Of a DNA stretch of 64,000 bases, positions 15,280 to 58,144 are shown one piece after another. Each line of letters starts with the position of its first letter. Position 1 is the first letter of the stretch. The stretch lies in contig CP136061.1 of the NCBI GenBank assembly GCA_032622095.1, positions 189,788,369-189,852,368 of the forward strand, read 5' to 3'. Both the position numbers and the translations under genes were made by a program. This DNA comes from Siphonodentalium dalli (taxonomy: Eukaryota; Mollusca; Scaphopoda; Gadilida; Siphonodentaliidae). The notes under the pieces are model-generated. The model ran no database searches. It saw only the letters and a program-made list of their open reading frames with translations, and was not told the origin of the DNA.

Positions 15280-16152
15280 GTGGTTGCTAGGTGTGCAATG
15301 CGCCAGCGTGGGAATGATGAGTACACTAATCGACTCTCTAACAATTACCAGTACAGCGGGAACGGGAACCACAGAAATGACGAGTACACTAATCGATCCT
15401 ACAATGATCACCGTTACGGCGGGAACGAGAACCGCGATCAAACAATGGAACCAATCATCGGTAAACCGTTCTCCCAACAAGTCGACAGCTCCGCTCGCGA
15501 TTCGCCGAATTATGACGTCACAAAAGGCAACGTAAATATTGTTGTTGATACAGTAATATTGGGCGCAAGCAATTGTGCTGGACTCCCGATTACAAAACCC
15601 AATATAAAGTTGTACGCGTTTTCTGGCGCATGCTACCGCGACATTGACAAACTTTTGAAAATGGTGTCTCAGGACAAGGACATTGACAATAAACTTATAT
15701 CTACTGTCATTGTGCATCTGGGCACAAATGACATTGTTCACGAGAAAGGCAATTCAACTCCCGCTATTGGATATATTCCAGAAGCATTGGCTGAGATTCG
15801 TAGAATGTTTGAACGCGCGTCTGTTAAGCTGTACAGTGTCCCACTGAGGAAGGGACGCAGTATGCGTGCACAGGACCACAATAACGCCGCTATTCTGGTC
15901 AACCAATTTATTGAGTGGTCATGTAACCGAAAACCGTATCTAACATACGTGGACACCACTGCGCAGTTCTGGGAAGGTGACAGTGTTGCCAAAGCGTTGT
16001 TTGATGACGATTACCGGAACGGCCTTCACCTTAGTCCTAAAGGTAGAACGGAGTTGGCAGAATCGTTCATAGGCACAGCGTCCGGTAAGCGGGATAGAAG
16101 TCCCACGAACACTACCCCTGAGCAGATTAAGGCTGCCAAAAATGACATTTGA
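15280..16152 (+). CDS. LINE ORF1, C-terminal part (SGNH/GDSL-like esterase)
   Basis: Continues ORF1 after the hAT insertion. The first codon is GTG (Val), not a start. The first residues finish a CCHC knuckle (VVARC). A low-complexity N/Y/G/R/H-rich linker follows, then an SGNH hydrolase-like domain with block I ILGASN (Ser at about residue 97 of this part), HLGTND at about 146-151, and the His block NGLHLSPKG at about 248-256. Esterase domains of this kind are known in ORF1 of CR1/L2-type LINEs. The usual Asp two residues before the catalytic His (DGLH) is Asn here; nearby Asp residues (DDDY) could substitute, so activity is uncertain. It ends in TGA at 16150-16152, in the same frame as ORF2 and with no other stop between them. 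Confidence 0.8.
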   Translation: MVARCAMRQRGNDEYTNRLSNNYQYSGNGNHRNDEYTNRSYNDHRYGGNENRDQTMEPIIGKPFSQQVDSSARDSPNYDVTKGNVNIVVDTVILGASNCAGLPITKPNIKLYAFSGACYRDIDKLLKMVSQDKDIDNKLISTVIVHLGTNDIVHEKGNSTPAIGYIPEALAEIRRMFERASVKLYSVPLRKGRSMRAQDHNNAAILVNQFIEWSCNRKPYLTYVDTTAQFWEGDSVAKALFDDDYRNGLHLSPKGRTELAESFIGTASGKRDRSPTNTTPEQIKAAKNDI

Positions 16153-16191
16153 AATGGTAACAGTTGTATCCACCCAAAATTTACCCAGTGT

Positions 16192-19100
16192 ATGAATACT
16201 CCAAATTATTATTCACATTCGAAATCATTTAAATTCAACGCTTCTGCTGAATTCAACGGTCCATGTGATGATACCTTAATTCAAAATTCCCCAATATATC
16301 CACAATGGTCAGTTGGCGAGCTATATGTCCAAAAACCGAATGATATAAGTGTTGAATCACTTGACACATCGTTGAATAAAAATTATTTTTCGAACACTGT
16401 TACCGTGAACACGGAAAGAACGATCAGGGGTGAACAAGATGTTTTATTCGATAACCATAAATACACATGTACTTACTCTGAGCACATTTCAGGTTCCAGA
16501 GGTAAGTCTGTAAACCTCGTCGATGGTAATTATTACACTAACTCTCAGAGGTCCGTGTGTGATAATAATGAACACATTGTTGATACCGAATATCACGGTG
16601 ACGACGAAATCGATAACGATGGTGTAGATAATTATTATGTTTATGACTATGGAATAAATATATGGAGAGGTCTTGATACTTTCTTCCAAGAAAATAATTA
16701 TGCATGTATTAACCCGCAACATTTATCAGAAAATGAACACCTACATTCTCAAATCACTGTGTGTTATAATGGTGGTGATGATCATGGTGATGATAGCGAC
16801 GAAGAGGGTAATGGTGATGATGCTGGTGGAGATGAGGGTGATCATAACGGTGACGACGAGGGTGAAAATGATGGTGGGGTTGATGACGATACTGGTGATG
16901 AGAATGCCGATGGTGATGGTGATGATGAGGAGGAGGACGACGACGATGATGATGCTGATGATGATGATGATGATGATTATGATGATGATGATGATGAAGG
17001 GGGTGACGATACTGACGATGAAGATGATGATGATCATGATGCTGGTGGAACGAACAATATTAGAATACTTTCGCTTAATGTGGGTGGTATAATGAAACGC
17101 CTCAATTACCCCGAGTTCCTTTCTTTGATTATGAGATATGATGTTTTGTGTTTAACAGAGATTAAAGTGCATGCCACAGACAATTTACAAATTCCTGGAT
17201 TTGAGATAATCACGAAGAAATGCAGACCGAATAATGTAACGCGCTCGGGAGGGTTATTAATAGCGATACGCGACGGCTTGAACATGAAACCGAGGGTCAT
17301 TCAAACTGACTTGAAATTTATTTTGTGGGCTGAGTTATCTCTTTCAAATGGGTCACAACTTTTGTTGGGTAACGTTTATATACCACCAGAAAACACAAAA
17401 TACACAGACAACAACTGGGGCACATCACTTGAAAACGAGATTATTCAAATGAAGTCCACGTATCCAAAAACAATGCTAGTTGGTGATTTCAATTCTAGAA
17501 CTGCCGAACTTGAAGATTATGTAGATTTAGAATCTTCGCAAGATGAATCTGATTATCTAACGACTTATCTACAGGCAACAAGAGACATGGTAATTTATAA
17601 ACGCGCATCGGAAGACATCGGGAGGCCCAACGCATACGGTTATCGACTGCTTCACCTAACAAAATTTACCAAAGAATATATTATGAACGGACGGTTAGGA
17701 GCAGACAAGGGTATAGGCAAGAAAACATGTCGTGGTGCCAGTGTCGTAGATTACGCTTTAGGGTCTGAGGAGGTATTTGGTCTCATTAGTGATTTTGAAA
17801 TCCTTGAATTTTCTTGTCTCACGTCTGATGTCCACTGTGCACACAATATCGAGATTAGCAGTAGTATATCGTGCGAACAACTTGCATCTTCTTCTGATCA
17901 CTTTGAATCGGAGGGACACAGTTTGCCATCGCGAATAAAAAAATGGGAAAACGATAAATCGGAAGAATTCATAAACTTAGTTGGGATGCGCGCGGACGAA
18001 TTGCAGGTAATTTTTGAAAAGTATTGTGATGGACATACGTGTATGACATCGAATACCGCGCATTGTGCTTCTCAAATTGCGAACATTTTAACATCTGCAG
18101 CAGAAGAAATATTTGGTAAATCTGATCGGAAATTTGTTAAAGCCGATAATGCTAACTTTAAGCATAGAAACAACAGGCCATGGTTTGACAAAGAATGTAG
18201 AATCAAAGGAAAAAGGTTTAACAGAGCCAGAAAGAAGTTTAATAAAAATAAATCCGTATTAAATAAAGCCGCTTTAAGATCTGTAAGTAAAATTTACAAG
18301 AACACAATGAATAAGAAAATTGTTTCTATGAACGAACGTTGCAATAACGAACTTCGGTGTCTTTCGCAGAGGTCTACGGGCGAATTTTGGCGAACGCTCG
18401 AAAAGTACTCATCCAGCAGAACGGCCCAAACTGAAATTCCCATTGGGGTGGACGATTTCTTTGAACACTTTAAATCCCTGAATGTGGAAGAGGAAACAAC
18501 TCAACAAGAACCCCTAATTAACGAAATGTTTGGTCTAGAAACAACTGACGAATTGAACAACCCCATCAGTTCAGAAGAAATCGCTAGTGTTATTGACAAG
18601 TTAAAATTCAATAAATCAAGTGGTGTTGATCGGGTCTCGAATGAGTACATCAAGACAACTAAAGACATTATGTTACCATACTACACTCGTCTATTCAACT
18701 CTATACTTGATACTGGCGTTTTCCCCGATGAATGGACAACAGGGTTAATTGTACCCCTATATAAAAATAAAGGTTCTCGTAACAACCCAGATTCATATAG
18801 GGGAATAACTTTGCTTAGTTGTATTGGAAAAGTGTTTACCGGCATTCTAAATAAGCGGCTATCAGACTACATAGAACGGCAGGGAATTTTGAGCGATAAT
18901 CAGTCTGGGTTCAGGAAACAACGTTCCACTTTAGACAATATTTATATATTATACGCACTTTTTGAAATTTATTTGAGAGGTGGGAAGAAACTCTTTTGCA
19001 CTTTCGTAGACTTCAAGAAAGCATTTGATACCGTTTGGCGACAGGGTCTGTGGGTAAAACTCTTGAGAAGTGGAATAAACGGAAAATTCTTCCAGGTAAT

Positions 19101-20523
19101 CAGATGTATGTACCAGACCACCAAAGCTTGCGTTATGAGGGGTGGTCGGAGATCTGAATATTTTTTATGCACAACAGGAGTGAAACAAGGGGAAAATCTT
19201 TCGCCTCTTCTATTCTCGCTGTATCTGAATGACCTTGAGGATTTCCTAGAAAGCTGCTCTATCGACGGTTTGAAATACCTGTCATCTAGTATGTATGAAC
19301 ACCTTGGCGCATATTTGAATTTGTTCTGCATTCTTTATGCAGACGACACTGTTATTTTTTCCGACAATGCACGTGATATGCAACGTTCACTAGATGCCTT
19401 CAGCGATTATGCAAGTTCATGGGAACTGAAGGTAAACACACAGAAGACTAAGGTTATGATTTTTGGCAACAAAAGGGCTGAATCTGACATAAAATTCTAT
19501 ATTGATGGACATGAACTAGAAGTTGTTGATGAATTCATTTACCTTGGTGTTAAATTATTTTATAACGGACGATTTTGTCGCGCGATAAAACATAACCGCT
19601 TGAAAGCAACAAAGGCTATGTATGGACTACTCTCCAAGGTTCGAAAACTGTCCCTATCAACTGACCTGGCATTGAAACTTTTTGACTGGCTCATCAAGCC
19701 AATCCTTCTGTATGGGTGCGAAGTTTGGGGGTGCGAAAATCTAAGGGACATAGAAGCCGTCCATTTAAATTTTTGCAAGTCATTAACACATATGAAGAAT
19801 AGTACTCCAAATTACATGGTATACGGTGAGCTCGGTCGTTGGCCTCTTTACATTGAGGTAAAAAAGAGAATGATATCATATTGGTCAAGACTGATAACCC
19901 AACCTGACCACAGACTAATGCACAAACTGTACAGACTGTTGATCTCCGTTGAAATGAGTGGGAAAAAGGTTCGATTGATTGATTGCTATAGGATAACCCT
20001 TCAGTCTACTGGGTTCGATGATACTTGGCATCGCCAAAAGACGATGACACCTTCGATGATAGGCAGTATGCACTCAGCTTTGATTAATACTTTTAAATCA
20101 GATTGGGATAGGGATATATCTGCCTCTTCTTCTCGTGGTGAATTATACAGACATCTTAAAACCAAGCCCACTCTCAGTATTTTTTATTATGAATTGTCAT
20201 TTAATGACAGAGTAAGTATTCAAAAAATCCGAACAGCGAATCATAGATTGGGAGTAGAAGTGGCTAGATGGGGCAAAAATAAAAAGGGGAATAAAACGCA
20301 GCTTGTGTGCCCTCTTTGTAAGGTCTCTATATCAGACGAGTATCATTTTATAATAATTTGTCCGAAGTTAGCAGACATTAGAGAAAAACTTATCTCAAAT
20401 GAGTATTGGACAAATGGATCCATTGATTATCTGTATAAACTTTTGAACTCTACTGATCTCATTCAACTAAAAAATCTCGCAAAATTCATACGCATAGGCA
20501 TGAAGCGATATGAAGACAACTGA
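16192..20523 (+). CDS. LINE ORF2: endonuclease-reverse transcriptase with acidic N-terminal extension
   Basis: 1443 codons without interruption. Residues 1-193 are unrecognised and polar; 194-283 are a D/E/G tract encoded by GAT/GAC/GGT repeats. An EEP endonuclease starts at about 288 (ILSLNVGG, LTEIK, GNVYIPP, GDFNSRT at about 431, SVVDYALGS, SDVHCAHN). The reverse transcriptase follows: LIVPLYKNKG near 852, SYRGITLLS, FVDFKKAFDTVW, GVKQGENLSPLLFSLYLNDL, and the catalytic YADD at 1049-1052. A CPLC...H...C motif lies near 1374-1393, as in many LINE C-termini. Most LINE ORF2s begin close to the endonuclease, so the 287-residue extension is odd. All catalytic motifs look intact, suggesting a young copy. 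The open frame extends upstream to the ORF1 stop. Confidence 0.92.
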   Translation: MNTPNYYSHSKSFKFNASAEFNGPCDDTLIQNSPIYPQWSVGELYVQKPNDISVESLDTSLNKNYFSNTVTVNTERTIRGEQDVLFDNHKYTCTYSEHISGSRGKSVNLVDGNYYTNSQRSVCDNNEHIVDTEYHGDDEIDNDGVDNYYVYDYGINIWRGLDTFFQENNYACINPQHLSENEHLHSQITVCYNGGDDHGDDSDEEGNGDDAGGDEGDHNGDDEGENDGGVDDDTGDENADGDGDDEEEDDDDDDADDDDDDDYDDDDDEGGDDTDDEDDDDHDAGGTNNIRILSLNVGGIMKRLNYPEFLSLIMRYDVLCLTEIKVHATDNLQIPGFEIITKKCRPNNVTRSGGLLIAIRDGLNMKPRVIQTDLKFILWAELSLSNGSQLLLGNVYIPPENTKYTDNNWGTSLENEIIQMKSTYPKTMLVGDFNSRTAELEDYVDLESSQDESDYLTTYLQATRDMVIYKRASEDIGRPNAYGYRLLHLTKFTKEYIMNGRLGADKGIGKKTCRGASVVDYALGSEEVFGLISDFEILEFSCLTSDVHCAHNIEISSSISCEQLASSSDHFESEGHSLPSRIKKWENDKSEEFINLVGMRADELQVIFEKYCDGHTCMTSNTAHCASQIANILTSAAEEIFGKSDRKFVKADNANFKHRNNRPWFDKECRIKGKRFNRARKKFNKNKSVLNKAALRSVSKIYKNTMNKKIVSMNERCNNELRCLSQRSTGEFWRTLEKYSSSRTAQTEIPIGVDDFFEHFKSLNVEEETTQQEPLINEMFGLETTDELNNPISSEEIASVIDKLKFNKSSGVDRVSNEYIKTTKDIMLPYYTRLFNSILDTGVFPDEWTTGLIVPLYKNKGSRNNPDSYRGITLLSCIGKVFTGILNKRLSDYIERQGILSDNQSGFRKQRSTLDNIYILYALFEIYLRGGKKLFCTFVDFKKAFDTVWRQGLWVKLLRSGINGKFFQVIRCMYQTTKACVMRGGRRSEYFLCTTGVKQGENLSPLLFSLYLNDLEDFLESCSIDGLKYLSSSMYEHLGAYLNLFCILYADDTVIFSDNARDMQRSLDAFSDYASSWELKVNTQKTKVMIFGNKRAESDIKFYIDGHELEVVDEFIYLGVKLFYNGRFCRAIKHNRLKATKAMYGLLSKVRKLSLSTDLALKLFDWLIKPILLYGCEVWGCENLRDIEAVHLNFCKSLTHMKNSTPNYMVYGELGRWPLYIEVKKRMISYWSRLITQPDHRLMHKLYRLLISVEMSGKKVRLIDCYRITLQSTGFDDTWHRQKTMTPSMIGSMHSALINTFKSDWDRDISASSSRGELYRHLKTKPTLSIFYYELSFNDRVSIQKIRTANHRLGVEVARWGKNKKGNKTQLVCPLCKVSISDEYHFIIICPKLADIREKLISNEYWTNGSIDYLYKLLNSTDLIQLKNLAKFIRIGMKRYEDN

Positions 20524-26320: not shown

Positions 26321-29213
26321 TATGAAAGTGTCAATGACACTGTAGCTCAACTTGGAAAGGGAATAATTTAATGTATTACAGTCAATGGAGCGATTAGGAA
26401 TGTGGAGTAAAATCCAAGATGGCTGCTGGTGGCCATGTTTTCGGCCGAATGACCCCAAAATGAGTCGTTCCCATCTACATGTCATTGTTAATATACATGA
26501 CAAATTTTATGATGATCAGACTAAAGGTACGACCTGCAGCCCGTGCTAAAGAATTTAGTCATACAAAGAGTAAAATCCAAGATGGCTACTGGCGGCCATG
26601 TTTTTTGGCCGAATGACCCCAAAATTACTCATTCCCATCTACATGTCAATATTATCATCCATGACAAATTTCATGATGATCAGAAGAACAGTACGACCTG
26701 TACCGGTACGTGGCCCGTGCTAATGGATTAAATTTTGAAATCCAAGATGGCCGCCATGTTTTTTGTCCGAATGACCCCAAAATGACTCGTTCCCATCTAC
26801 ATTCCAATTTCAACGTTAACATCCATGACAAATTTTATGATGATCAGACTAAAGGTACGACCTGTAGCCCGTGCTAAAGGATTTAGTCATACAAAGAGTA
26901 AAATCCAAGATGGCTGCTGGCGGCCATGTTTTTTCGCCGAATGATCCAAAAATGACTTGTTCCCATCACCATGTCATTATTAACATTCTTGACAAATTTT
27001 ATGATGATCAGACTAAAAGTAGGACCTGTAGCCGGTGCTAAAGGATTTAGTCATACAAAGAGTAAAATCCAAGATGGCTGCTGGCGACCATGTTTTTTGG
27101 CCGAATGACCCCAAAATTACTTGTTCCCATCTACATGTCATTGTTAATATCCATGACAAATTGTATGATGATCAGGCTAAAGGTACGACCTGCAGCTTGT
27201 GCTAAAGAATTTAGTCATACAAAGAGTAAAATCCAAGATGGCTGCTGGCGGCCATGTTTTTTGGCCGAATGACCCCAAAATTACTCGTTCCCATCTACAT
27301 GTCAATATTATCATCCATGACAAATTTCATGATGATCAGACGAACAGTACGACCTGTGGCCTGTGCTAATGGATTAAATTTTGAAATCCAAGATGGCCGC
27401 TGGCGGCCATGTTTTTTGTCCGAATGACCCCAAAATTACTCGTTCCCATCTACATTCCAATTTCAACAGCCATGACAAATTTTATGATGATCAGACTAAA
27501 GGTACGACCTGTAGCCCATGCTAAAGGATTTAGTCATACAAAGAGTAAAATCCAAGATGGCTGCTGGCGGCCATGTTTTTTGTCCGAATGACCCCAAAAT
27601 GACTCGTTCCCATCTACATTCCAATTTCAACAGCCATGACAAATTTTATGATGATCAGACTAAAGGTACGACCTGTAGCCCGTGCTAAAGGATTTAGTCA
27701 TACAAAGAGTAAAATCCAAGATGGCTGCTGGCGGCCATATTTTTTGGCCGAATGACCCCAAAATGACTCGTTCCCATCTACATGTCATTATTAACATTCA
27801 TGACAAATTTCATGATGATCAGACTAAAGGTAGGACCTGTAGTCCGTGCTAAAGGATTTAGTCATACAAAGAGTAAAATCCAAGATGGCTGCTGGCGACC
27901 ATGTTTTTTGGCCGAATGACCCCAAAATTACTCGTTCCCATCTACATGTCATTGTTAACATCCATGAAAATTTTTATGATGATCAGACTAAAGGTACGAC
28001 CTGCAGCCCGTGCTAAAGAATTTAGTCATACAAAGAGTATAATCCAAGATGGCTGCTGGTGGCCATGTTTTTCGGCCGAATGACCCCAAAATTACTCGTT
28101 CCCATCTACATGTCAATATTATCATCCAAGACAAATTTCATGGTGATCAGACGAACACTACGACCTGTGGCCCGTGCTAATGGATTAAATTTTTAAATCC
28201 AAGATGGCCACTGGCGGCCATGTTTTTTGTCCGAATGACCCCAAAATGACTCGTTCCCATCTACATTCCAATTTCAACAACCGTGACAAATTTTATGATG
28301 ATCAGAATAAAGGTACGACCTGTAGCCCGTGCTAAAGGATTTAGTCATACAAAGAGTAAAATCCAAGATGGCTGCTGGCGGCCATGTTTTTTGGCCGAAT
28401 GACCCCAAAATGACTCGTTCAAATCTACATGCCATTGTTAACATCCATGGGAAATTTTATGATGATCAGACTAAAGGTACGACCTGTAGCCCGTGCTAAA
28501 GGATTTAGTCATACAAAGAGTAAAATCCAAGATGGCTGCTGGCGGCCATGTTTTTGGGCCGAATGACCCCAAAATGACTCATTCCCATCTACATGTCAAT
28601 ATTAACATCCATGACAAATTTCATGATGATCAGACGAACAGTGCGACCTGTGGCCCGTGCTAATGGATTGAATTTTGAAAACAAAGATGGCCACTGGCGG
28701 CCATGTTTTTTGTCCGAATGACCCCAAAATGACTCGTTCCCATCTACATTCCAATTTCAACAGCCATGACAAATTTCATGATTATCAGACTAAAGGTACG
28801 ACCTGTAGCCCGTGCTAAAGGATTTAGTCATACAAAGAGTAAAATCCAAGATGGCTGCTGGCGGCAATGTTTTTTGGCCGAATGACCCCAAAATTACTCG
28901 TTCCCATCTACATGTCAATATTAACATCCATGACAAATTTCATGACGATCAGACGAACAGTACGGCCTGTAGCCCGTGCTAATGGATTGAATTTTGAAAT
29001 CTAAGATGTTTTTTTTCCGTATGACCCCAAAATGAATCATTCCGGTACAAATGTTGATGTCAACAGCTATGACAAATTTCATAATGATCCGATAAAAGGT
29101 ACGACCTGTAGCCTCTATTGTTGACGCCTTACGCACACACGCACACATGGACGACGGACGACAAAGCCATGGCAATAGCTCAAACTTTACAAAGTAAAGT
29201 TGAGCTAATAAGT
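26321..29213 (+). mobile_element. DNA transposon filled with a 160-bp satellite array
   Basis: The left end has GTCAATGACACTGTAGCTCAA and the right end AAAGTTGAGCTAATA. AGCTCAACTT (26344-26353) and AAGTTGAGCT (29197-29206) form an inverted pair. Comparison with the uninterrupted relative at 8870-8910 shows a clean insertion into the C repeat with slight rearrangement at the site. There is no transposase ORF. The tandem-array-in-transposon layout resembles the pearl-type elements described in bivalves, a comparison from general knowledge. Confidence 0.7.
26400..29110 (+). repeat. About 17-unit, 160-bp satellite with YY1-like motif
   Basis: Units recur every 158-166 bp, each with ATCCAAGATGG(c)..GGCGGCCATG, CGAATGACCCCAAAATGACT and ACAAATTTTATGATGATCAG. 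Two subtypes alternate irregularly. One has GCTAAAGGATTTAGTCATAC before the AAGATGG box; the other has GCTAATGGATTAAATTTTG (about 26690, 27340, 28152, 28630, 28955). The short ORFs that recur in this region are repeat artefacts. AAGATGGC/GCCATGTT fits the YY1 consensus in both orientations; binding is untested. Confidence 0.9.
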
Positions 29214-31227: not shown

Positions 31228-31443
31228 TACAATAATTCCCTAAGTAATCGACTCCTTAACCACAGAAGGATTATGGTAACTTTTCAGGATTTAGTCGGAA
31301 ATATGGCTTGTTGCCATTCATCGGAAAGCGCTCGCCGAGAGCTTTCCGATGAATGGCAACAAGCCATATTTCCGACTAAATCCTGAAAAGTTACCCATTA
31401 TTCTGATGTGGTTAAGGAGTCGATTACTTAGGGCATTACTGTA
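31228..31443. mobile_element. Fold-back MITE, family P, copy 1
   Basis: 216 bp, nearly a perfect palindrome. Arms run from TACA..AATTCCCTAAGTAATCG through GGATTTAGTCGGAAATATGG to CATTCATCGGAAAG on each side. TA at both ends is the probable target. Two more copies at 36976 and 37376. Confidence 0.8.
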
Positions 31444-32140
31444 GTTGCAAATTTGTAATCACCATCTCTCAGATACTTATAAAATATATTCCAAGTTTGG
31501 TTATAATCTACAAAACAATCTTTGCTCCATGTATATTTGACAAAATTACATATATGATTGCTAAACATATATATCTCGAAAAGGGGGATAACTATTGTGA
31601 AACAGCTCAGATCTTATAATTGCAGGTGCGCATTAATAGCCTAGTGGCTTAGGGCCAAAATTTTGCAATATCGTGACAGACCCGATTAAAAGCATGAAAC
31701 ATTGCCGATATGTACAACGGGATATGGGAAATAATTTTGGAGGTGGGTGCCCGGGCTGCGGTTCAATGGGTCATGGTTCAGGAGAATTTCTGGTTTCCAT
31801 GGCAACGGCATAAAATATTTGGGGAAAAGTGGAAAAAGGCCGCGGTTTGGAAACAATAAGCCTTGTGTTTGAATAAATGATGTGAACTCATAGCGCAATC
31901 AATGGTCCATCAAATGGACTGGGCCACTAAGACATATAGAGTCATGGTCACCAATAAGGTCAAGGTCATTGGAAAAATGTAATTTTTCAGTCTGTTTTTA
32001 AGTTATTGTCTCATATTCCGCCAATCCTAATGCCTTAGTCATAAATGCAATCCTTTCTTAATGCACAAAAAAAATGTAGGTGATATGACCCATACCAGTC
32101 CAAAACGTATTATATTTGGGTTTTCATGGCCGTACGTGGC
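31444..32140. other. Nothing recognised
   Basis: Plexin intron without supported features. Confidence 0.5.
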
Positions 32141-32144
32141 TTAA

Positions 32145-32481
32145 CCCTTTGGCGAGTAGAACGACATATATGTCGTCTATCGGTTGAGGAGAAGAACGAC
32201 ATATATGTCGTTTCAGGAAGTGTTATTTTACGTAGACATAAATTCAATAAATCATCTGATTTATAAATGATTTGTATAGGAGTTATTTTGATTAATATAA
32301 TGTCCCAAATGTATAAGTGCAATCGATATTATGATAACACACGTTAACAAAAAATGCATACAAATTAAAACGAATTATTGGACCCCTTTGACTCGAACTT
32401 GTTAATAATTATTGCTATGACGTTGACTTTAAATTTACTCATGACGTCATGTATATGACGTTACAGATACTCTCCAAAGGG
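32145..32481. mobile_element. TTAA-flanked MITE (piggyBac-like ends)
   Basis: 337 bp between TTAA at 32141-32144 and 32482-32485. Ends are inverted: CCCTTTGGCGAGTA at the left and, reversed, CCCTTTGGAGAGTA at the right. The palindrome ACGACATATATGTCGT occurs twice near the left end (about 32161 and 32195). No coding sequence. TTAA targets and CCC-starting ends are typical of piggyBac-mobilised MITEs. Confidence 0.8.
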
Positions 32482-32485
32482 TTAA

Positions 32486-33250
32486 CCTTTTGACAACATA
32501 AATTTGTTTTGCTACCATTGGATAAAGAATTATAATACCTACAAAATGACACATCACCTATTAAAATCCAATCACAATGAGATTACAGTTTAACCCACCC
32601 CATGATGATCAGAACAAAATGGAAACTGAGTAAGGCTAAACTTTGACCCAAAAGGTACAATAGGACCCAAAATATTTTTCCTCAACAATACAATTTTTAT
32701 TAGGGTACATGAAAATACCAAAAAAGTTAAGTTATGGGGGGGGGTGCATGAGGGGTCCTACCAGCCCATGGACTATTATATTGTAATATTTATTGTGTAA
32801 ATAAAACATCTAAATCTAAATCTAAACTCAATAACATTCATTATCTTCACTGAGCTGTGTGGCCCCTAAAATTGCTCCATACCAAGTATCAAGGAAATCT
32901 GCCCAGTGAGACTGCACAAACATTTTGAATTATTTAAAATAGTGCTATCTGGCCCTAAGCCAGCCTTTTTTTTGCCTCCTGTCTGAGACCCCTAAAGCCC
33001 CTGACATGACACCAGAGTAAACAAGCATAATGATGAGAATGTGAAGGAATCACATTACTTTTGGTGACTAATACTCATTGGCATTACATGAATAAAGCTA
33101 GTAAATGGAGGCTCTAAAAATAATTCCTTTTCAATAAACGGCTGTGATAAATCTGCAGGTGATAACGTTCTCTTATATTTCACAGTGGGAAGCCTGTATT
33201 ACTTGAGTTACCATCAGGAATCCTCAAATCTGGATAATTCTAAGTAAAAT
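32486..33250. other. Nothing recognised
   Basis: Plexin intron; a short poly-G run near 32740 and simple ATCTAAATCTAAA repeats near 32810. Confidence 0.5.
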
Positions 33251-33910
33251 GAAAGAGTCAATGACACTGTAGCTCAACTTGGGGAGGTGTAAATTTTTTG
33301 CTGAGCAATGAAAAGAATGATAAAGAAGAAGTCACACTGAAGATCCATATAAAGTTAGATCAGGATCGGATGAGGGATATGGTCTGTAGGGTGCGCCAAA
33401 GAATTTAGTCATACAAAGCGTAAAGATTTGTTTTTCAACGAATTTCGGTCAAAATAGGAGGTTCCCATATAGAGGTCACCCGAAGATCCATATGAAGTTT
33501 GGTGATCATCAGATGAGGGATGTGGTCTGTAGGGTGTGCCAAAGGATTTAGTCATGCAAAGAGTAAAATCCAAGATGGCTGCCAGCCATTGTTCAAATGT
33601 GATAGCTCCCATCTAGAGTTAATTCTAAACTTGCCTGTAAATTTTCAAATAAATTCTCCAATAAATGCAGGCTGCGGAGTGTGCCGATAGATTCAAATTT
33701 GAAATCCAAGATGGCCATGTTTTAAAAAAAATTTCTGTCCAAATAGGAGGTCACCCCGAAGATCCATATGAAGTTTGGTGATGATCGGATGAGAGATGTG
33801 GTCTGTAGGGTGTGTCAAAGAATTTAGTCATGCAAAGAGTAAATTCCAAGATGGCCATGTTTTTCATCAAAAATCATTCAAATTCGATAGCTCCAAGAGC
33901 TCTTTCCATC
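33251..33910 (+). mobile_element. Degraded copy of the satellite-bearing transposon
   Basis: Starts with the same GTCAATGACACTGTAGCTCAA leader and holds about three diverged units with ATCCAAGATGGC. The right terminus is not recognisable. Confidence 0.55.
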
Positions 33911-34078
33911 AATGTATCACATTATTATAATCAATAAATTTGAAAAATGTTCAAGGAAATATGGGTTGATACAAAAATCGGACTTGGCACTGAAAGGGTT
34001 ATTAAATACTCATTGATGAGAATCAGTAGTTCCCTTAGGAAATGTTCAGATAATAAGTTCAGCAAATGGTCATATTTC

Positions 34079-34291
34079 AAAGCTTTGAAATAGTGTGTCT
34101 GTCATTTGCAGAATGAGGTCCCCAGAGGGTGAATTTACCCTCTGGGGACCTCATTCTGCTTACACCTCAGCAGAATGAGGTTCACAGAGGGTGAATTTGG
34201 AGATGCTAGCCCACTATGCGGGGTAGCATCACTAAATTCACCCTCTGGGGACCTCATTCTGAAAATGACAGACACACTATTTTAAGGCTTG
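34079..34291. mobile_element. hAT-like nested-palindrome MITE, family Q, copy 1
   Basis: 213 bp with inverted ends related to CAAGCCTTGAAATAGTGTGT (left start mutated to AAAGCTTTG). It is flanked by a perfect 8-bp duplication CATATTTC (34071-34078 and 34292-34299). Inside, several inverted copies of CAGAATGAGGT..CCAGAGGGTGAA make multiple hairpins. 8-bp duplications point to hAT mobilisation. Confidence 0.85.
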
Positions 34292-34477
34292 CATATTTCA
34301 CAGCAATGTCAGAATAGGAATCTTTCTGCACTTGTATTATCTCTTCATCTGTCTGTTGTCTGCTCAGTTTTCATGAACACCCCTCCAAATGAATAATAGT
34401 CCATTCAATATATATGTTTATAACTGAATGGGAGAATACATTCAGTAAAGAAAGGGTTAGATTTGTAAATATTTTAC

Positions 34478-35602
34478 CTGCTGACACCGGTTTTCAGTGA
34501 CTCCCGTTATCCAGGGTATGGTAGCGCCTCTTCCTGAATAACACTCTTGTTGTGCAAGCTTGAATTGCTCCTCAATGTCTTCCATTTTAAAACTACAAAG
34601 CACTGAATTGTAAACCTGAGGTTTGACTGGTGACTGACTCGTGTGAATCTCGAAGGTCACATATAATTCTGAGGTATCAGCGACCCCAGTGTCGTAAAGG
34701 TATGCACCAGTTGCTATATAGGCGTCACTCCGTGTGTTTCCATTTTGGGCATAACATGATATTGGCAGTTCCGTGTAAGAATAATAATAATAATCCCCTT
34801 GACAAACTCGTGCCAATCGTGTCTCTAATCTCGAATCAGTTGTACTTTTATTCTGAACGGAGATGAAATAGGCAAACTTGTGGAATTCAAAAGCATACTT
34901 GTATGATGCTTTAAATGATGTCTTATAAACATTAGCTATGTCAACAGCTGAAAATGTTTGATCATCAGAATATGAATACTCAACGAAATAAGAATTTTTC
35001 TCTGATTTCACTTTCAGGGAAGAAACTGCTCTTGGGGCGAAAGAAAGTAACCTGCCATCATAAGCTGAAGCAACATATAATGTTTTATCGTTCTCTCCTT
35101 CCATTGCCCCAGATCCAAAGAATGCAGCAACAGAAGATTTACTGGACACGTAGCTATTTGTCACATTGGGATTCATTGTGTAGTTAATTCCAATACTGGT
35201 GAGAGCATGAACTGTGCACATTCCCTGGTTAGCTGACCCACAACACAGTAAATATTTCTTAACTGGATTTATCTCCAGTATATTGATATGATTGTCAGTT
35301 GTAGACCTCGGAAAACTGCATTCTAAGGGTGAAGGTTTACATTGCGAGTTGTCATCCACTGGCCCTTTGATTACGTTGCCTTTGAACTCTATATCCTTTG
35401 CTAAATGAAGCAGAATATTACGTCCTCCCACATAGACCTCCCCTGTGTCTTTATTAACAGCCACCTGTGTCAGTGGTGAATAGCTTCTTGCCACGCTGTA
35501 TGTTTTGAGTTGTCCATGACAGGGATATAAAGGTACAACCAAAATTATAAACACCAGTAGACAAAGCATGTTAACCTGGCAAGAAGCATAATTCAGCAAC
35601 AT
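34478..35602 (-). CDS. Plexin, first coding exon (signal peptide and Sema domain)
   Basis: 375 codons from the Met at 35602 to ENRCQQ at the donor CAG|GTAAAA. A second Met at codon 12 is followed by a strong hydrophobic run (LCLLVFIILVVPLY) and a plausible cleavage after YPCHG, so the shorter start may be the real one. The mature part has the plexin Sema layout: YSPLTQVAVNKDTGEVYVGG, then VIKGPVDDNSQC, TTDNHINILEI, YLLCCGSANQGMC, and a C-terminal IPWITG. Subclass (A or B) is not decided. Plexins are cell-surface semaphorin receptors acting in axon guidance and cell migration. PSI, IPT, transmembrane and GAP segments are outside the window. Confidence 0.87.
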
Positions 35603-36017
35603 GGTTATGTTTTATCTTCCGGTAGAAATGAATAATCCTTTGAAAAGAGTGCTTAGCAGTGAAAATTATTCAAATGTTTTCCGAAACTTCCAGAAGATAA
35701 TCAGGCTCCCGGATATGTCCACCATAGACGACAATTATCCATTCTACAAATGTCAAGTTCATTTGAAGCTGGTTATTACTAACAATTTAGCAGCCTCTGT
35801 CATCAGTTCACTCAGAGTAATATGTAATTATTGACGGCTTTGGTCTCTGCTGTTTAATTATGCAGCCTTGGTGCAAACAATGTTGGTATAAATAATAAAG
35901 TGACATGTATCAGGAGAGATGGTACTGTCAGACATCAGGGCTCATTCCAGTTGCTTTAATATGTGTTGTCTTGTCGCGGGGCATGTAGTTCTCACTTCCA
36001 AATAACTACCAAGTAAC
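35603..36017 (-). other. Probable plexin 5' untranslated sequence of the first coding exon
   Basis: A good acceptor (TTCTTCTGTCATTTCAG, then GTTACTTGG) lies just above 36017 on the minus strand, and stops precede the Met at 35602 in this stretch. The coding exon may therefore begin at 36017 with a non-coding upstream exon elsewhere. Inference from splice-site quality only. Confidence 0.4.
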
Positions 36018-36975
36018 CTGAAATGACAGAAGAAAAATTAATAATCATTAAAAATCTGTTAAGGTCTTAGACCAAATATTTTCATGATATTTTTATTTTG
36101 GTATCAATATCTGAAGAAAATATATACTAGTATTTCACACACAAGCAAAGTTTTGTTTGTGTACAAAACCTATGCAAAGTTGTATAAATTTATCGCCTTA
36201 AAACATACATAGTGACATTTAAATCCTGTTCAAATTAAGATTCAGTTTTCAAATTTGGGCCCAGATAATGTTTCAACACTTAAGCAATGGATGTTGATAT
36301 GTTTGCGTTACATGGAGTATGGATGCAGGTTTGTCTGACATTGTGTATGGGACATGTCAGATCAACATCCAATGTTAGATTTACAATAAACATGCAAATT
36401 AAAAGAGCATTTAGAACCCATTTTTTTAAGTTGCATACACACAATATGTTACATGACGTGACTTCAACCAACCAACATCGTCCATTCAGGTTCCACAGCG
36501 CGAATGCATGTAGGAGTTTAAATATATTGCTATGGTGAAAGATTAGTGTAGGCCATCAGGGAACTCTATTCTGTTTGCTTTCAGAACATGGTTCCACAGT
36601 GTAGTCTATTGCATATATCTTTTGATCACACATATATATAATCCCTATTTATCATTTTAGCACATACAGCAAATGGTCCCTCTACTGTGGAAACACAGCA
36701 GTATTATCTCCCTCAATATCAGAATTTTTGTTTTCACTTCTCTGACATTATTATGAAATGACGAGAAATGTTTTTTTCTGATCTGTTTTGAGTACACTGA
36801 CCAGTACTACTAGTACATACAGAAAGGTACAGTATACATTGGAATCCAAAACTAAATGGCAGGGTATTAAAGGTTTCAAAATTTATTGCTCAGTTACAGA
36901 CAGTACATGTATAACGAGAGGTTTCACCAGCGTTGCTGGCATATCCCAAAGGTAGCAATTTCAAACATGGGCAGG
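36018..36975. other. Upstream/intron DNA, nothing recognised
   Basis: No promoter motif I would defend and no exon. Confidence 0.5.
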
Positions 36976-37178
36976 TACAGTAATGCTCTAAGTAAACGAC
37001 TTCTTAACCACAGCAGAATTATGGGTAATTTTTCAGGATTTAGTCGGAAATCTGACTTGTTGCCAGTGAGAGCTTTCCGATGAATGGCAACAAGCCATAT
37101 TTCCGACTAAATCCTGAAAATTAAGTTACCCATAATTCTGCTGTGGTTAAGGAGTCGATTACTTAGAGCATTACTGTA
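36976..37178. mobile_element. Fold-back MITE, family P, copy 2
   Basis: Ends TACAGTAATGC ... GCATTACTGTA; one arm is shortened. It is flanked by direct copies of GCAATTTCAAACATGGGC(a/c)GG, much longer than the TA expected for this family. Confidence 0.8.
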
Positions 37179-37221
37179 GCAATTTCAAACATGGGCCGGT
37201 AGGAACCCAAATACTGACAAC

Positions 37222-37296
37222 CTCTACAATTCTCTCCTCCCTCTACAATTCTCTCCTCCCTCTACAATTCTCTCCTCCCTCTACAATTCTCTCCTC
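37222..37296. repeat. 20-bp minisatellite
   Basis: CTCTACAATTCTCTCCTCCC repeated about four times without change. Confidence 0.9.
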
Positions 37297-37375
37297 CATA
37301 AGATCATTCAAATAACTTTTGAAAACTCTCAGCAGAAGAGCCAGCCAGGACAAAAATCATGAAAAATTGACAATC

Positions 37376-37592
37376 TACAGTAATGCCCTAAGTAATCGAC
37401 TTCTTAACCATAGCAGAATTATGGGTAACTTTTCAGGATTTAGTCGGAAATATGGCTTGTTGCCATTCATCAGAAAGTTCTCCCCGAGAGCTTTCCGATG
37501 AATGGCAACAAGCCATATTTCCGAGTAAATCCTGAAAAGTTACCCATAATTCTGCTGTGGTTAAGAAGTCGATTACTTAGAGCATTACTGTA
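37376..37592. mobile_element. Fold-back MITE, family P, copy 3
   Basis: 217 bp, ends TACAGTAATGC ... GCATTACTGTA, arms nearly perfect inverted copies. Same orientation-free structure as copy 1. Confidence 0.85.
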
Positions 37593-40087
37593 ATGGCCAT
37601 ACATGTAACTCAGGCAAAAATGCAAACAAAATTATAAAATTCAAAAAGTGGGGATATAATAATGTTTGAATCTTCCAATTATAATTTGCACTCAAAATTT
37701 TCACGGCTGTAACTTGCCAAAATAAAAGGGAACATAAAAGAGTCTTTAACCCCTTAGATCTGTTCCAATGAATAATTTAGCTGGTTTACTAATCTCTACT
37801 GGACTCTAGATGGATTTTTTATGATAAATGTGCAAGTAGTGTATTTTGTTACTTATATAGTAATATTAATTTCCAAAACTCCACCTCCACCTCCATGTGC
37901 CAATCTAAATGTGTCTCCTAACCTAGAATCTCAGATACCAGAAACCATCAAAAACAGCACTTCCTACCGGTATATCAATTTTAATTTCATTCCAAGAAGC
38001 TTTAATGATATAAAGATTTTATATAAATAATACTATATTTAATATCTAATCTCGAATAAAAATACAAACAACAAACATTCAACTCAAGGGAAATAATGAG
38101 TTGATTCTACTTACACTTGTCTTTGGAAATTAAATATTTGAATTAACAGAAAACACAGAATGCATACTTTTCCTTTTCACTATGTACATGGTAATTTCCA
38201 CACATTGACTATTCAGTAAACCAAAGTATCAACATAGCTGAACAAATGTTGCATGACACAATACCAAATGGTAACATTCTCGGTTGTAAAATAAAAAGTT
38301 TCAATTTAAAAGTGAAAGCATTGGGTTTTTGGATAATTGCAAGCTTGTTGTAGATTGTATGAGCCATAAATTATGTGGGTCCAATTGGGGGATAATTGCA
38401 TTGCAATTACTGCCTTCCTTCACAAGTAATAGTGGATAAATTCATTCAGATATCACATCAAATCATGATATATATTCTGTCATGAGACCTAACCTTTTCT
38501 GTGGTAGAAATTTATACTGAAGCTGATGGATCATTGTCCCAAGGCAACAATCACATACCTACACGAATATGGCTAGAGGGTCTCTGTTATCCAATCCATT
38601 TGCACCCCTCCCTTTAGGGTGGATAATTGGGTTGGATAATCGGAAATTATTGACTGCCAAATTTCAGTCCAAAAAATAAACCAAAAGTAGGAAAATCGTT
38701 GACTTTGACCTAAACGAACACATATCCCTCTATAACCCTTCCATGACTGTGCCAATGCACTGTCTTATATATAGGCCCCTGCGAATCAGGGGTTTTCATT
38801 TCGAATCTAATTTCAAATCAAATCAAATTCGAAATTTAATCAAAACTGGAATCGAATCGTAATATCAAGTGTATCAACAGTGAAGAGGTTAAACACTTTG
38901 GGAAACACTTAAATTGGAATCTGTAACGAACCGAAAAACTCGTAATAACTGATCACCAATGGATATTATATTACCTATAATGATATTAATGCATCTTCTT
39001 CATAAAACGCATGCATATAATTTTTCTCATAAATAATGATGGGTGCGAATCATTGTCATATTGAATGCGATGAGTTGTAAATCTTTACAATGTTCCTTCA
39101 AACTTTTTTAGTTGGCAAACTTTGACGATCTCCGTGTTGTACTGAAATCTGCCATTTAAATTGTATCATTCTGACCTCCTTAACCTATATATGGCAGTAT
39201 ATGGAATGGAGACTTGTGAGGTTTGCCAAATGAGTTTGACTGTAATTTCATTATGACATTCAACTCATGGACTCCTGGAGTCATGTTGGGTTTACGTCAT
39301 TCTTACTGAGATTATAATAAATTAAAGTCGATGTCACAAGTATTTTCACTTTCCACACTTTCATATGTCCTTGTAATCACATAAGGCCAAGTAGAGAAAA
39401 GCACCAAGCTCGAAGACCCAATGCACTCTAAAATGTGTCTATTTACATTGCAGTGTTACTCTGCAGTTGAAACTTAGGGCGCCAACTTGACTTTTAAGTT
39501 CCAACGTCATGACGTCACACCGAGAACTGATTACTGCATGGATAAGACTACGTTGTTGATTTCTTGAAAATACTGTTGGCAAAGACTTGTTTTATTTAAT
39601 GTGTATTCTGTTGTGGGTAGCTATATATATGATGCATGTGTATCGGATGGCAGATTTGTAAGATATTAAGTATGTCATGACATATATGAATAATTGCTGT
39701 AATCTGGAATCCTGCGCCCATGATAATGACCTAAATCTATCGGATATATAGATCTATTGGTGTTCCTATATATCAAAATTAGGCCATGTCTTACACTGAT
39801 ATACATAGAGATTATAGTCACATCTATACATTCTATATGGTTGGGTATTAATATGTTTGTTTACGGATAAGACGACCCAAAACTGACAAACTGGAAAAAA
39901 AGGACAATTAATTTCATATTTGTCCACGAAGATCCAACTATGACATGAACCAAAATAAAAAAATATATATGTATAGTCTATATACATGTATATATATAAG
40001 ATAGACCTATGTCAAATTCAATCCTGAGCGATACATGGACTGTCCTCATCTAGAGTAATATATGTAGAAACAATTCAGTCTCAGACA
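37593..40087. other. Nothing recognised over 2.5 kb
   Basis: AT-rich, no exon, RNA gene or repeat terminus supported. GGATAATTG-type motifs recur near 38330, 38390 and 38625 without forming a defined element. Confidence 0.45.
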
Positions 40088-40341
40088 CAAGCCTTGAAAT
40101 AGTGTGTCTGTCATTTGCAGAATGAGGTCCCCAGAGGGTTAATTTAGTGATGCCACCCCGAATAGCAGGCTAGCATCACCAAATTCACCCTCTGGGAACC
40201 TCATTCTGCTGACGTGTAAGCAGAATGAGGTCCCCAGAGGGCGAATTTGGTGATGCTAGCCTGCTATGCGGGGTAGCATCACTAAATTCACCCTCTGGGG
40301 ACCTCATTCTGCAAATGACAGACACACTATTTCAAGGCTTG
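40088..40341. mobile_element. hAT-like nested-palindrome MITE, family Q, copy 2
   Basis: 254 bp. Ends CAAGCCTTGAAATAGTGTGT and its inverse; perfect 8-bp duplication CTCAGACA at 40080-40087 and 40342-40349. Four copies of GCAGAATGAGG..CCCAGAGGG in alternating orientation fold into two hairpins inside one large one. Confidence 0.88.
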
Positions 40342-57609: not shown

Positions 57610-57654
57610 TGTAACGGGAGAAGGGTGGAATGCGGGAGTCGCACCGAAAGTTAG

Positions 57655-57734
57655 CAGCACCCTAAATCTCAGGCCACCGGTCACCCATCCAAGTACTAAC
57701 CGGGCTCGACGTTGCTTAACTTCGGTGACGAGAC
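57655..57734 (-). ncRNA. 5S-rRNA-like segment in the 3' LTR
   Basis: Identical to the 5' LTR copy except for one substitution. From here a transcript could read out into flanking DNA; the first TTTT lies near 57520. Confidence 0.8.
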
Positions 57735-57737
57735 AAG

Positions 57738-57757
57738 GCGTCTTAACCACTGGACCA
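57738..57757 (-). promoter_or_regulatory. tRNA-type box A-like motif next to the 5S-like segment
   Basis: TGGTCCAGTGGTTAAGACGC lies directly upstream of the 5S-like part on the minus strand (second copy 58060-58079). It resembles a tRNA 5' region with box A. No box B is seen. Confidence 0.45.
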
Positions 57758-57822
57758 AAGAAGCATGCTCCGTTGGAGCTGTTGATTAATCGGCCTTCTA
57801 TATTTACAACGCGACCGCTACA

Positions 57823-57836
57823 TTCCTCCCTTCCTC
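57823..57836 (-). promoter_or_regulatory. Polypurine tract
   Basis: GAGGAAGGGAGGAA on the minus strand, abutting the 3' LTR. Confidence 0.85.
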
Positions 57837-57915
57837 GTTTTGAGGTTCATCACCAAGTGATCCTCACCCAAGTTCCTCTCTCAGAGCGGTCGCACCATGA
57901 CACAGACTCTGAGGA

Positions 57916-57930
57916 CCGGACGAGCCCCCA
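57916..57930 (-). promoter_or_regulatory. Primer-binding site, tRNA-Pro type
   Basis: TGGGGGCTCGTCCGG on the minus strand, one base from the 5' LTR. It pairs 15 of 15 with the tRNA-Pro 3' end including CCA. Confidence 0.85.
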
Positions 57931-57931
57931 G

Positions 57932-58144
57932 TGTAACGGGAGAAGGGTGGTATGCGGGAGTCGCACCGAAAGTTAGCAGCACCCGAAATCTCAGGCCACC
58001 GGTCACCCATCCAAGTACTAACCGGGCTCGACGTTGCTTAACTTCGGTGACGAGACGAGGCGTCTTAACCACTGGACCAAAGAAGCATGCTCCGTTGGAG
58101 CTGTTGATTAATCGGCCTTCTATATTTACAACGCGACCGCTACA
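57932..58144 (-). repeat. 5' LTR of the TRIM
   Basis: 213 bp, TGTAGCGG...GTTACA on the minus strand. Differs from the 3' LTR at three positions only, implying a fairly recent insertion. It contains TAAATATAG near its start. Confidence 0.85.
57977..58056 (-). ncRNA. 5S-rRNA-like segment in the 5' LTR
   Basis: Reads TCTCGTC-ACCGAAGTTAAG, then CAACGTCGAGCCCGGTTAG, TACTTGGATGGGTGACCG and, further on, GGGTGCTG. This follows the animal 5S order through box A (AAGTTAAGCAACG), the intermediate element and box C, to the 3' part. The first about 35 nt of 5S are missing or unrelated and there is no TTTT terminator close by, so it is a derived promoter module, not a working 5S gene. Confidence 0.8.

Follow-up and report, generated by a model that had tools for sequence, protein, structure and literature searches.

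A dispersed family of miniature LTR retrotransposons with host-type 5S rRNA sequence in its LTRs in an animal genome

TRIMs with 5S or tRNA sequence in their LTRs

For miniature LTR retrotransposons (TRIMs) that carry promoters of the RNA polymerase III (pol III) type, the class name TRIMp3 was proposed (PMC10886601). Cassandra, found in land plants, has a 5S promoter in its LTRs, a methionine-type primer binding site (PBS; TGGTATCAGAGC) and a polypurine tract (PMC10853983); its copies also form LTR-sharing tandems, and long tandem arrays were reported (PMC7215508). For Cassandra, promoter mirroring has been raised (PMC10853983), and according to the discussion of PMC10886601 nothing indicates its autonomous helper. 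Ajax, described from two nemerteans with elements of 421 and 434 bp, contains a partial 5S sequence (boxes A, IE, and C) in its LTRs, uses a tRNA-Leu primer and produces target site duplications (TSDs) of 5 bp (Kojima, 2024; PMC10886601). The LTRs of Helenus, which is described from fungi, animals and one plant, contain tRNA sequence that includes boxes A and B; animal Helenus elements have 4-bp TSDs, some bivalve elements use a tRNA-Pro primer, and a Gypsy element is presumed to be the helper (PMC10886601). In the main text of a paper on bivalve TRIMs (PMC6934838) the terms 5S rRNA and 5S rDNA are absent, and a search of openly licensed papers found no animal 5S TRIM other than Ajax.

Here we describe a further family, of which one copy lies in the stretch of 64,000 nucleotides that was analyzed (the window). 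It shares with Ajax that it is an animal TRIM with a PBS, a polypurine tract, no coding capacity and a partial 5S sequence covering boxes A, IE, and C in the LTRs, and this common plan would be explained if the family were the Ajax lineage of nemerteans by descent. However, as judged from the published description of Ajax, the two are set apart by length (535 bp here), by the primer (tRNA-Pro here), by the TSD (4 bp here) and by a tRNA-like arm that lies upstream of the 5S part in our family, and we regard such a descent as distinctly unlikely. If the host were a nemertean, the separation from Ajax could be less than these differences suggest. The first-pass annotation of the window had called the element Cassandra-like. 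This is appropriate for its anatomy: the two share a 5S promoter in the LTRs, a PBS, a polypurine tract and LTR-sharing tandems, boxes A and C are 18 nt apart here as in the published Cassandra query, and, compared by eye, box A agrees with the published motif in 10 of 12 letters and box C in 12 of 13. It does not extend to membership, as the PBS is of the tRNA-Pro type and the host is an animal. A true Cassandra related to the plant elements by common descent is highly improbable, given a primer site that differs from the conserved Cassandra PBS, the animal host, and a 5S part that is the host's own. With 5S sequence of the animal type and equal to that of the host, a capture independent of plant Cassandra, as favored at first pass, is the simplest reading. 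The same annotation had presented a 5S-bearing TRIM in an animal as a novelty, in which it was preceded by the publication of Ajax in 2024, and a primer other than tRNA-Met as a surprise, which it is not because Ajax uses tRNA-Leu and some bivalve Helenus elements use tRNA-Pro (PMC10886601). While the idea of a 5S-bearing animal TRIM is thus already published, the present family appears to be new in its combination of primer, TSD length and upstream arm. It suggests that animal miniature LTR retrotransposons captured 5S beyond the single pair of families published so far, and that such a capture can go together with a different primer and integration signature.

Anatomy of the element and its genomic family

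The window copy (L001) has a TRIM anatomy of about 535 bp and is encoded on the minus strand, running from 58144 to 57610 (Table 1). Two TG...CA repeats of 213 bp, the exact tRNA-Pro primer site and the 14-nt purine run were all present as first annotated. Read on the minus strand, the LTRs start with TGTAGCGG and end with GTTACA. The PBS (TGGGGGCTCGTCCGG) begins 1 nt past the 5' LTR and has no second match in the window even when three mismatches are tolerated. Extended by GA, TGGGGGCTCGTCCGG has been published as a probe against the zebrafish tRNA-Pro 3' end (PMC4688932), and the MLV site TTTGGGGGCTCGTCCGGGATTT was used as a proline-tRNA primer site (PMC4587795). In copy L041 the complementarity to tRNA-Pro amounts to 18 nt. 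The purine run closes the 109-nt internal part directly before the 3' LTR. The internal part was correctly reported to be devoid of ORFs: over the whole element a single frame of at least 150 aa exists (156 aa), which lies on the opposite strand and is mechanical. Next to the polypurine tract, a hairpin has a perfect 9-bp stem in all three subfamily B and in two of three subfamily C copies that were aligned (subfamilies are described below), and an imperfect stem in the window copy. As only one covarying pair was observed, we do not claim a conserved RNA element. When the complete element is folded, it does not surpass shuffled sequences (z −0.55), which counts against the explanation that we prefer below. 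Taken as a TRIM, the element is shorter than 1000 bp and has two LTRs, a PBS, a polypurine tract and no coding capacity, while the TSD is provided by the family and not by the window copy; with respect to TRIMp3, promoter sequence derived from a small RNA gene is found in both LTRs. To the first annotation we add the strand, the absence of a clean TSD from the window copy, and the tRNA-like arm that precedes the 5S part.

Table 1. Features of the window copy, in positions of the window.
Feature	Position	Strand	Basis
5' LTR, 213 bp, TG...CA	57932..58144	-	Repeat comparison; edges common to genome copies
3' LTR, 213 bp, three differences from the 5' LTR	57610..57822	-	Repeat comparison
Internal region, 109 bp, non-coding	57823..57931	-	Sequence, genome copies
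PBS, 15 nt complementary to the tRNA-Pro 3' end	57916..57930	-	Motif match; 18 nt in copy L041
Polypurine tract GAGGAAGGGAGGAA, 14 nt	57823..57836	-	Invariant in 9/9 aligned copies
5S-derived segment, 5' LTR (LTR 86-168)	57977..58059	-	Exact 50-nt identity with host 5S at 58001-58050
5S-derived segment, 3' LTR	57655..57737	-	Relaxed Rfam scan and alignment
tRNA box-A-like arm TGGTCCAGTGGTTAAGACG (LTR 66-84)	5' LTR 58061..58079; 3' LTR 57739..57757	-	Motif and shuffle tests, genome copies
Box-B-like stretch GGTGCGACTCC (LTR 178-188), one mismatch	5' LTR 57957..57967; 3' LTR 57635..57645	-	Not kept in subfamily C
Putative TATA-like box TAAATATAG (LTR 17-25)	58120..58128	-	Read from the sequence
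Internal hairpin adjoining the polypurine tract	57842..57865	-	Alignment of copies

The element belongs to a dispersed family in its own genome (2.23 Gb in nine contigs) with at least 45 matches, a lower bound obtained by scoring the best 40 of 1674 first-look candidates. The duplications of 4–6 bp that the first-pass annotation had proposed to look for are common in these copies. Exact 4-bp TSDs flank 27 of the 32 loci with both LTR ends and exact 5-bp TSDs flank two (L014, L036), compared with 16/992 and 1/992, respectively, when flanks were cross-paired as a control. This count excludes L010, L013, and the mixed-orientation locus L034, and it includes the non-simple loci L028, L032, L036, and L042. 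Four pairs of loci have common flanks and are duplications; after removal of one locus of each pair, 4-bp TSDs are found at 23 of 28. Without an exact TSD are L007, L041 and the window copy, the latter flanked by ATAT and TATG beside an AT-rich run, and its lack of a clean TSD counts against the explanation that we prefer below. The family contains both young and older copies, the divergence between the LTRs of one element ranging from 0 to 4.7% (28 comparisons at 26 loci) with an identical pair in L029 (0/213); for the counts of LTR divergence and variability, the duplicate or overlapping loci L010, L012, L013, L020, L025, and L031 and LTRs without both edges were dropped. Moreover, seven full-length solo LTRs were found, three with a 4-bp TSD, one with a 5-bp TSD and three with neither.

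Two loci, L042 and L028, are clean short tandems sharing LTRs (LTR-INT-LTR-INT-LTR) with a period of about 322 bp, each surrounded by one 4-bp TSD. A 5S satellite or an array of 5S pseudogenes, the reading for which a 322-bp period had been named in advance as the sign, could produce such tandem loci. Yet they are just two and short among the loci examined, the other copies being dispersed and single with common, sharp LTR edges and TSDs, and the 5S genes of the host sit elsewhere; the TSD counts refute this reading, which we consider extremely improbable. Dispersed copies, TSDs and the identity with host 5S over 50 of 50 nt described below confirm that the family is a retrotransposed TRIM and not a 5S satellite. 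Two loci are otherwise rearranged, L032 and L034, the latter with mixed orientation. At L036:1323-2436 the 5' LTR is split by about 890 bp, and a 10-nt overlap of the LTR pieces could be the target duplication of the insert itself. Scans for relatives gave 0 matches in a viral contig collection, with the queries of five scans, and 0 matches in a genome contig collection. Thirteen viral contigs that match a 16-mer of the LTR start were taken as chance matches.

The 5S segment and the predicted promoter

The first-pass annotation had reported a segment of about 80 nt in each LTR that follows 5S rRNA through boxes A, IE, and C. Against human 5S (34–113), LTR 86–168 matches in 66 of 84 columns, and the alignment to the host's own 5S genes, which it had proposed, reveals that LTR 95–144 of the window copy is identical to them over 50 of 50 nt spanning the three boxes. 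Copy L039 of subfamily C agrees with host 5S in 58 of 60 aligned columns. Host 5S genes are represented by at least 47 Rfam matches that exceed the cut-off and lie on contigs C2, C6, and C9 (47 matches scored out of 95474 candidates), and four genes that were compared are identical over the stretch examined. At C9:133539041-133551402 and C9:133595644-133603892 the host 5S genes are arrayed at intervals of about 1.36 kb, and those listed on C2 are less evenly spaced. At the gathering threshold Rfam finds no match in the whole window; in a relaxed scan the 5S parts of the LTRs score 22.1 and 21.5 bits compared with the gathering score of 38, which is low because the 5' part of 5S is absent from the LTR, the colinear comparison of 5S 1–33 with LTR 53–85 giving 6–7 matches in 33 positions. 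In comparisons of the 5' LTR with 5S sequences of several organisms, a generic mollusc sequence scores 107.5, human 76.5, Drosophila 71, Caenorhabditis elegans 63.5, Arabidopsis 35, and yeast 18 (not above shuffles). The animal sequences hence rank above plant and yeast, and these scores, together with the exact host match, bear out the early impression that the 5S part is closer to animal than to plant 5S. Within the segment, GTCCGATCACCG is found in subfamily B as in host 5S and GTCTCGTCACCG at the same place in subfamily A, to which the window copy belongs; at LTR 128, the T of host 5S is replaced by C in 31 of 63 LTRs. In 77 host sources (304 kb, 5S genes excepted), no fragment of 5S or of the tRNA-like arm was found outside the LTRs at E up to 0.05, and thus no SINE source was found.

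We consider it probable that these copies form a non-autonomous TRIM family of about 535 bp that holds a piece of host 5S with an internal pol III promoter in its LTRs and is mobilized by a Gypsy element. In the proposed mechanism, TFIIIA, TFIIIC, and TFIIIB would recruit pol III to the 5' LTR, perhaps aided by the tRNA-type box-A arm just upstream. The predicted transcript would start near LTR 53, run through the internal part and end in or past the 3' LTR, by which it would obtain the repeated ends needed for strand transfer. The first strand would be primed by tRNA-Pro and the second by the polypurine tract, and a Ty3/Gypsy element would provide Gag, reverse transcriptase and integrase in trans, with 4-bp target duplications as the outcome. 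The element contains no run of four T, and TTT occurs at LTR 174; with regard to a stop signal this counts against the pol III explanation.

To what extent the 5S promoter is kept can be judged from three subfamilies, A (with the window copy), B (L029, L030, L035) and C (L038, L039, L041); their comparison excludes the LTRs of L022, L028, and L036. Subfamilies A (46 LTRs) and C (6 LTRs) are separated by fixed substitutions at 2/65 positions in U3, 0/21 in the tRNA-like arm, 3/56 in the 5S core and 0/22 in the U5 end, compared with 15/43 positions plus six gap columns in the stretch after the 5S core; this stretch differs from the rest with a Fisher p of 4.5e-8, a test in which one replaced block would be scored as many separate changes. 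B and C differ at 2/56 positions in the core and 16/43 after it. For A and B the contrast is opposite to that between A and C (5/56 in the core, 2/49 in the stretch after it), which counts against our preferred explanation. Over 63 LTRs the mean frequency of the minor letter amounts to 0.035 for box A-IE-C compared with 0.018 for U3 (1–52), which, like the C at LTR 128, also counts against that explanation; it is 0.011 for the arm and 0.096 for LTR 143–168. In subfamily B, box C is altered by one inserted G and a T to C exchange (GGATGGGGCGACC), and the LTR pairs of this subfamily differ by 0 (L029), 1 (L030) and 2 (L035) bases. Such near-identical pairs indicate that subfamily B moved recently; recent spread can therefore do without a perfect box C, a further point against that explanation. 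These copies (L029:1001-1536, L030:1001-1536, L035:1001-1535) offer a natural experiment on how much 5S promoter the elements require, and together with the exact match of the promoter to host 5S they make promoter mirroring testable in an animal.

The 5S promoter is well kept and not rigid, which leaves room for a reading in which the TATA-like box (LTR 17–25) lets RNA polymerase II (pol II) transcribe an ordinary TRIM, with the 5S piece as a passenger. This box lies 28–36 nt upstream of the start expected from colinearity with 5S (LTR ~53) and fits pol II as well, U3 1–65 is no less conserved than the 5S core, and both the missing TTTT terminator and the altered box C of the young subfamily B speak for this reading. 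Against it, the window copy equals host 5S over 50 nt across boxes A, IE, and C while the following 49 nt diverged between A and C, and Cassandra, which may serve as an analogy, is stated to yield transcripts from its pol III promoter (PMC10886601). We regard transcription by pol II with a passenger 5S piece as unlikely.

Upstream of the 5S segment, the tRNA-like arm fits a tRNA box A and D-arm. Its box A is the same in 60 of 63 LTRs, and 61 of 63 agree with the consensus. Compared with nine tRNAs, the score of the arm against tRNA-Ser and tRNA-Glu is reached by 1 of 1000 shuffles, whereas for the other seven it is reached by 8 to 592 of 1000. A box A followed by a box B within 25–150 nt occurs only in these two LTRs when both strands of the whole window are considered. 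The box-B-like stretch has 3–4 mismatches in all six subfamily C LTRs, its support over the nine tRNAs ranges from 27 to 409 of 1000 shuffles, and it overlaps an imperfect inverted copy of the 5S box A (21 of 1000 shuffles). Rfam finds no tRNA at E up to 10, and ARAGORN finds none either. We therefore judge the tRNA-like arm to be probably real and box B to be doubtful, and a functional box B was dropped because subfamily C lacks it. An origin from a TRIM of the Helenus type, which took up 5S sequence later between its tRNA-derived boxes A and B, would account for the conserved box A and its resemblance to tRNA-Ser and tRNA-Glu, and animal Helenus resembles our family in its tRNA-type box A in the LTR, 4-bp TSD, tRNA-Pro primer (in some bivalves) and presumed Gypsy helper. 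On the other hand, our family differs from Helenus by the presence of 5S and by a box B that is weak and not conserved, and the shuffle results for the seven other tRNAs, the loss of box B in subfamily C, its overlap with the inverted 5S box A and the absence of an Rfam tRNA match speak against this origin, which is possible but rather unlikely. A more far-reaching reading, which we judge less likely than not, is that the family represents a separate, at least third, capture of 5S by miniature LTR retrotransposons. Its pol III promoter would then be composite, with a tRNA-type box-A arm joined directly to the upstream end of a host-matching 5S type-1 part, and the Ty3/Gypsy element described below would drive it in trans.

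A candidate helper and neighboring features

An autonomous partner with a tRNA-Pro site and similar LTR ends, as suggested in the first-pass annotation, was sought in the genome with the pattern RTTACA, one to three bases and the PBS, which gives 80 matches (reversed control, 0). A one-base spacer as in the TRIM is present in 61 of them (C in 58, T in 3), AA or AAA in 16, and another spacer in 3. Three of the sixteen AA/AAA loci were examined, and L090 and L091 contain long open frames. L091 encodes a PNMA-like gag with a zinc knuckle, followed by an aspartyl protease, reverse transcriptase, RNase H and integrase; in Pfam, the protease scores below the cut-off, the H2C2 zinc domain of the integrase over it, and the integrase core, which is cut off by the end of the stretch, below it. 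The order protease, reverse transcriptase, RNase H and integrase is that of Ty3/Gypsy elements. The L091 element (with L094 and L096) has LTRs of 1092 bp with 10 mismatches (99.1% identity) and TGTA...GTTACA ends, the TSD ATAA and the polypurine tract GGAAGGGGAGAA. Its LTR was tested for four 5S or tRNA motifs and has none of them. For L090 the LTR start was not found within the stretch examined, and L092 has a direct repeat about 3.2 kb downstream without resolved edges, so that the edges are fully resolved in L091 only.

The L091 family is the best candidate helper of the TRIM family. Both have a tRNA-Pro PBS, LTR ends of the form TGTA...GTTACA, 4-bp TSDs and similar polypurine tracts, and they differ in that L091 encodes Gag and Pol and has LTRs of 1092 bp without the four motifs. 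Since RTTACA and the PBS were conditions of the search, the matching LTR ends and PBS are not independent evidence, which is consequently limited to three features of one element, namely its TGTA start, TSD length and polypurine tract. With this concrete candidate in the genome, mobilization of a pol III-type TRIM in trans, as predicted here for L091-type elements, becomes directly testable.

Several further features of the window were noted. A plexin-type sema domain exon at 34457-35602 (minus strand), with Plexin-A1 as best PDB match (E 1e-33) and no match by Pfam or by protein search, indicates that the host is an animal and not a land plant. The molluscan hemocyanin domain PF14830 was not found in the genome, a result that carries no weight because no control gave a signal either. 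A non-LTR retrotransposon at 15280-20523 (plus strand) contains two ORFs, of which the first has a GDSL-esterase domain and the second, of 1443 aa, a reverse transcriptase domain. In a protein search with the second ORF, the named matches are symbiont bins and Patella caerulea (35% identity); relatives with 36–38% identity (P0011, P0021, P0029, P0033 and others) are filed under bins of Sedimenticola and Candidatus Thiodiazotropha, and these bacterial symbiont bins thus seem to include host DNA. Two neighboring ORFs are located at 1951-3213 (minus strand), the larger of which (2611-3213) matches DDE_Tnp_1_7, which we take to be piggyBac-type. A tandem satellite with about 16 copies of a 164-bp unit occupies 26405-28988. 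Finally, several pairs of inverted and direct repeats of 60–174 nt, mostly more than 90% alike, lie at 31275-37592 and 34132-40341 and are possibly miniature inverted-repeat elements.
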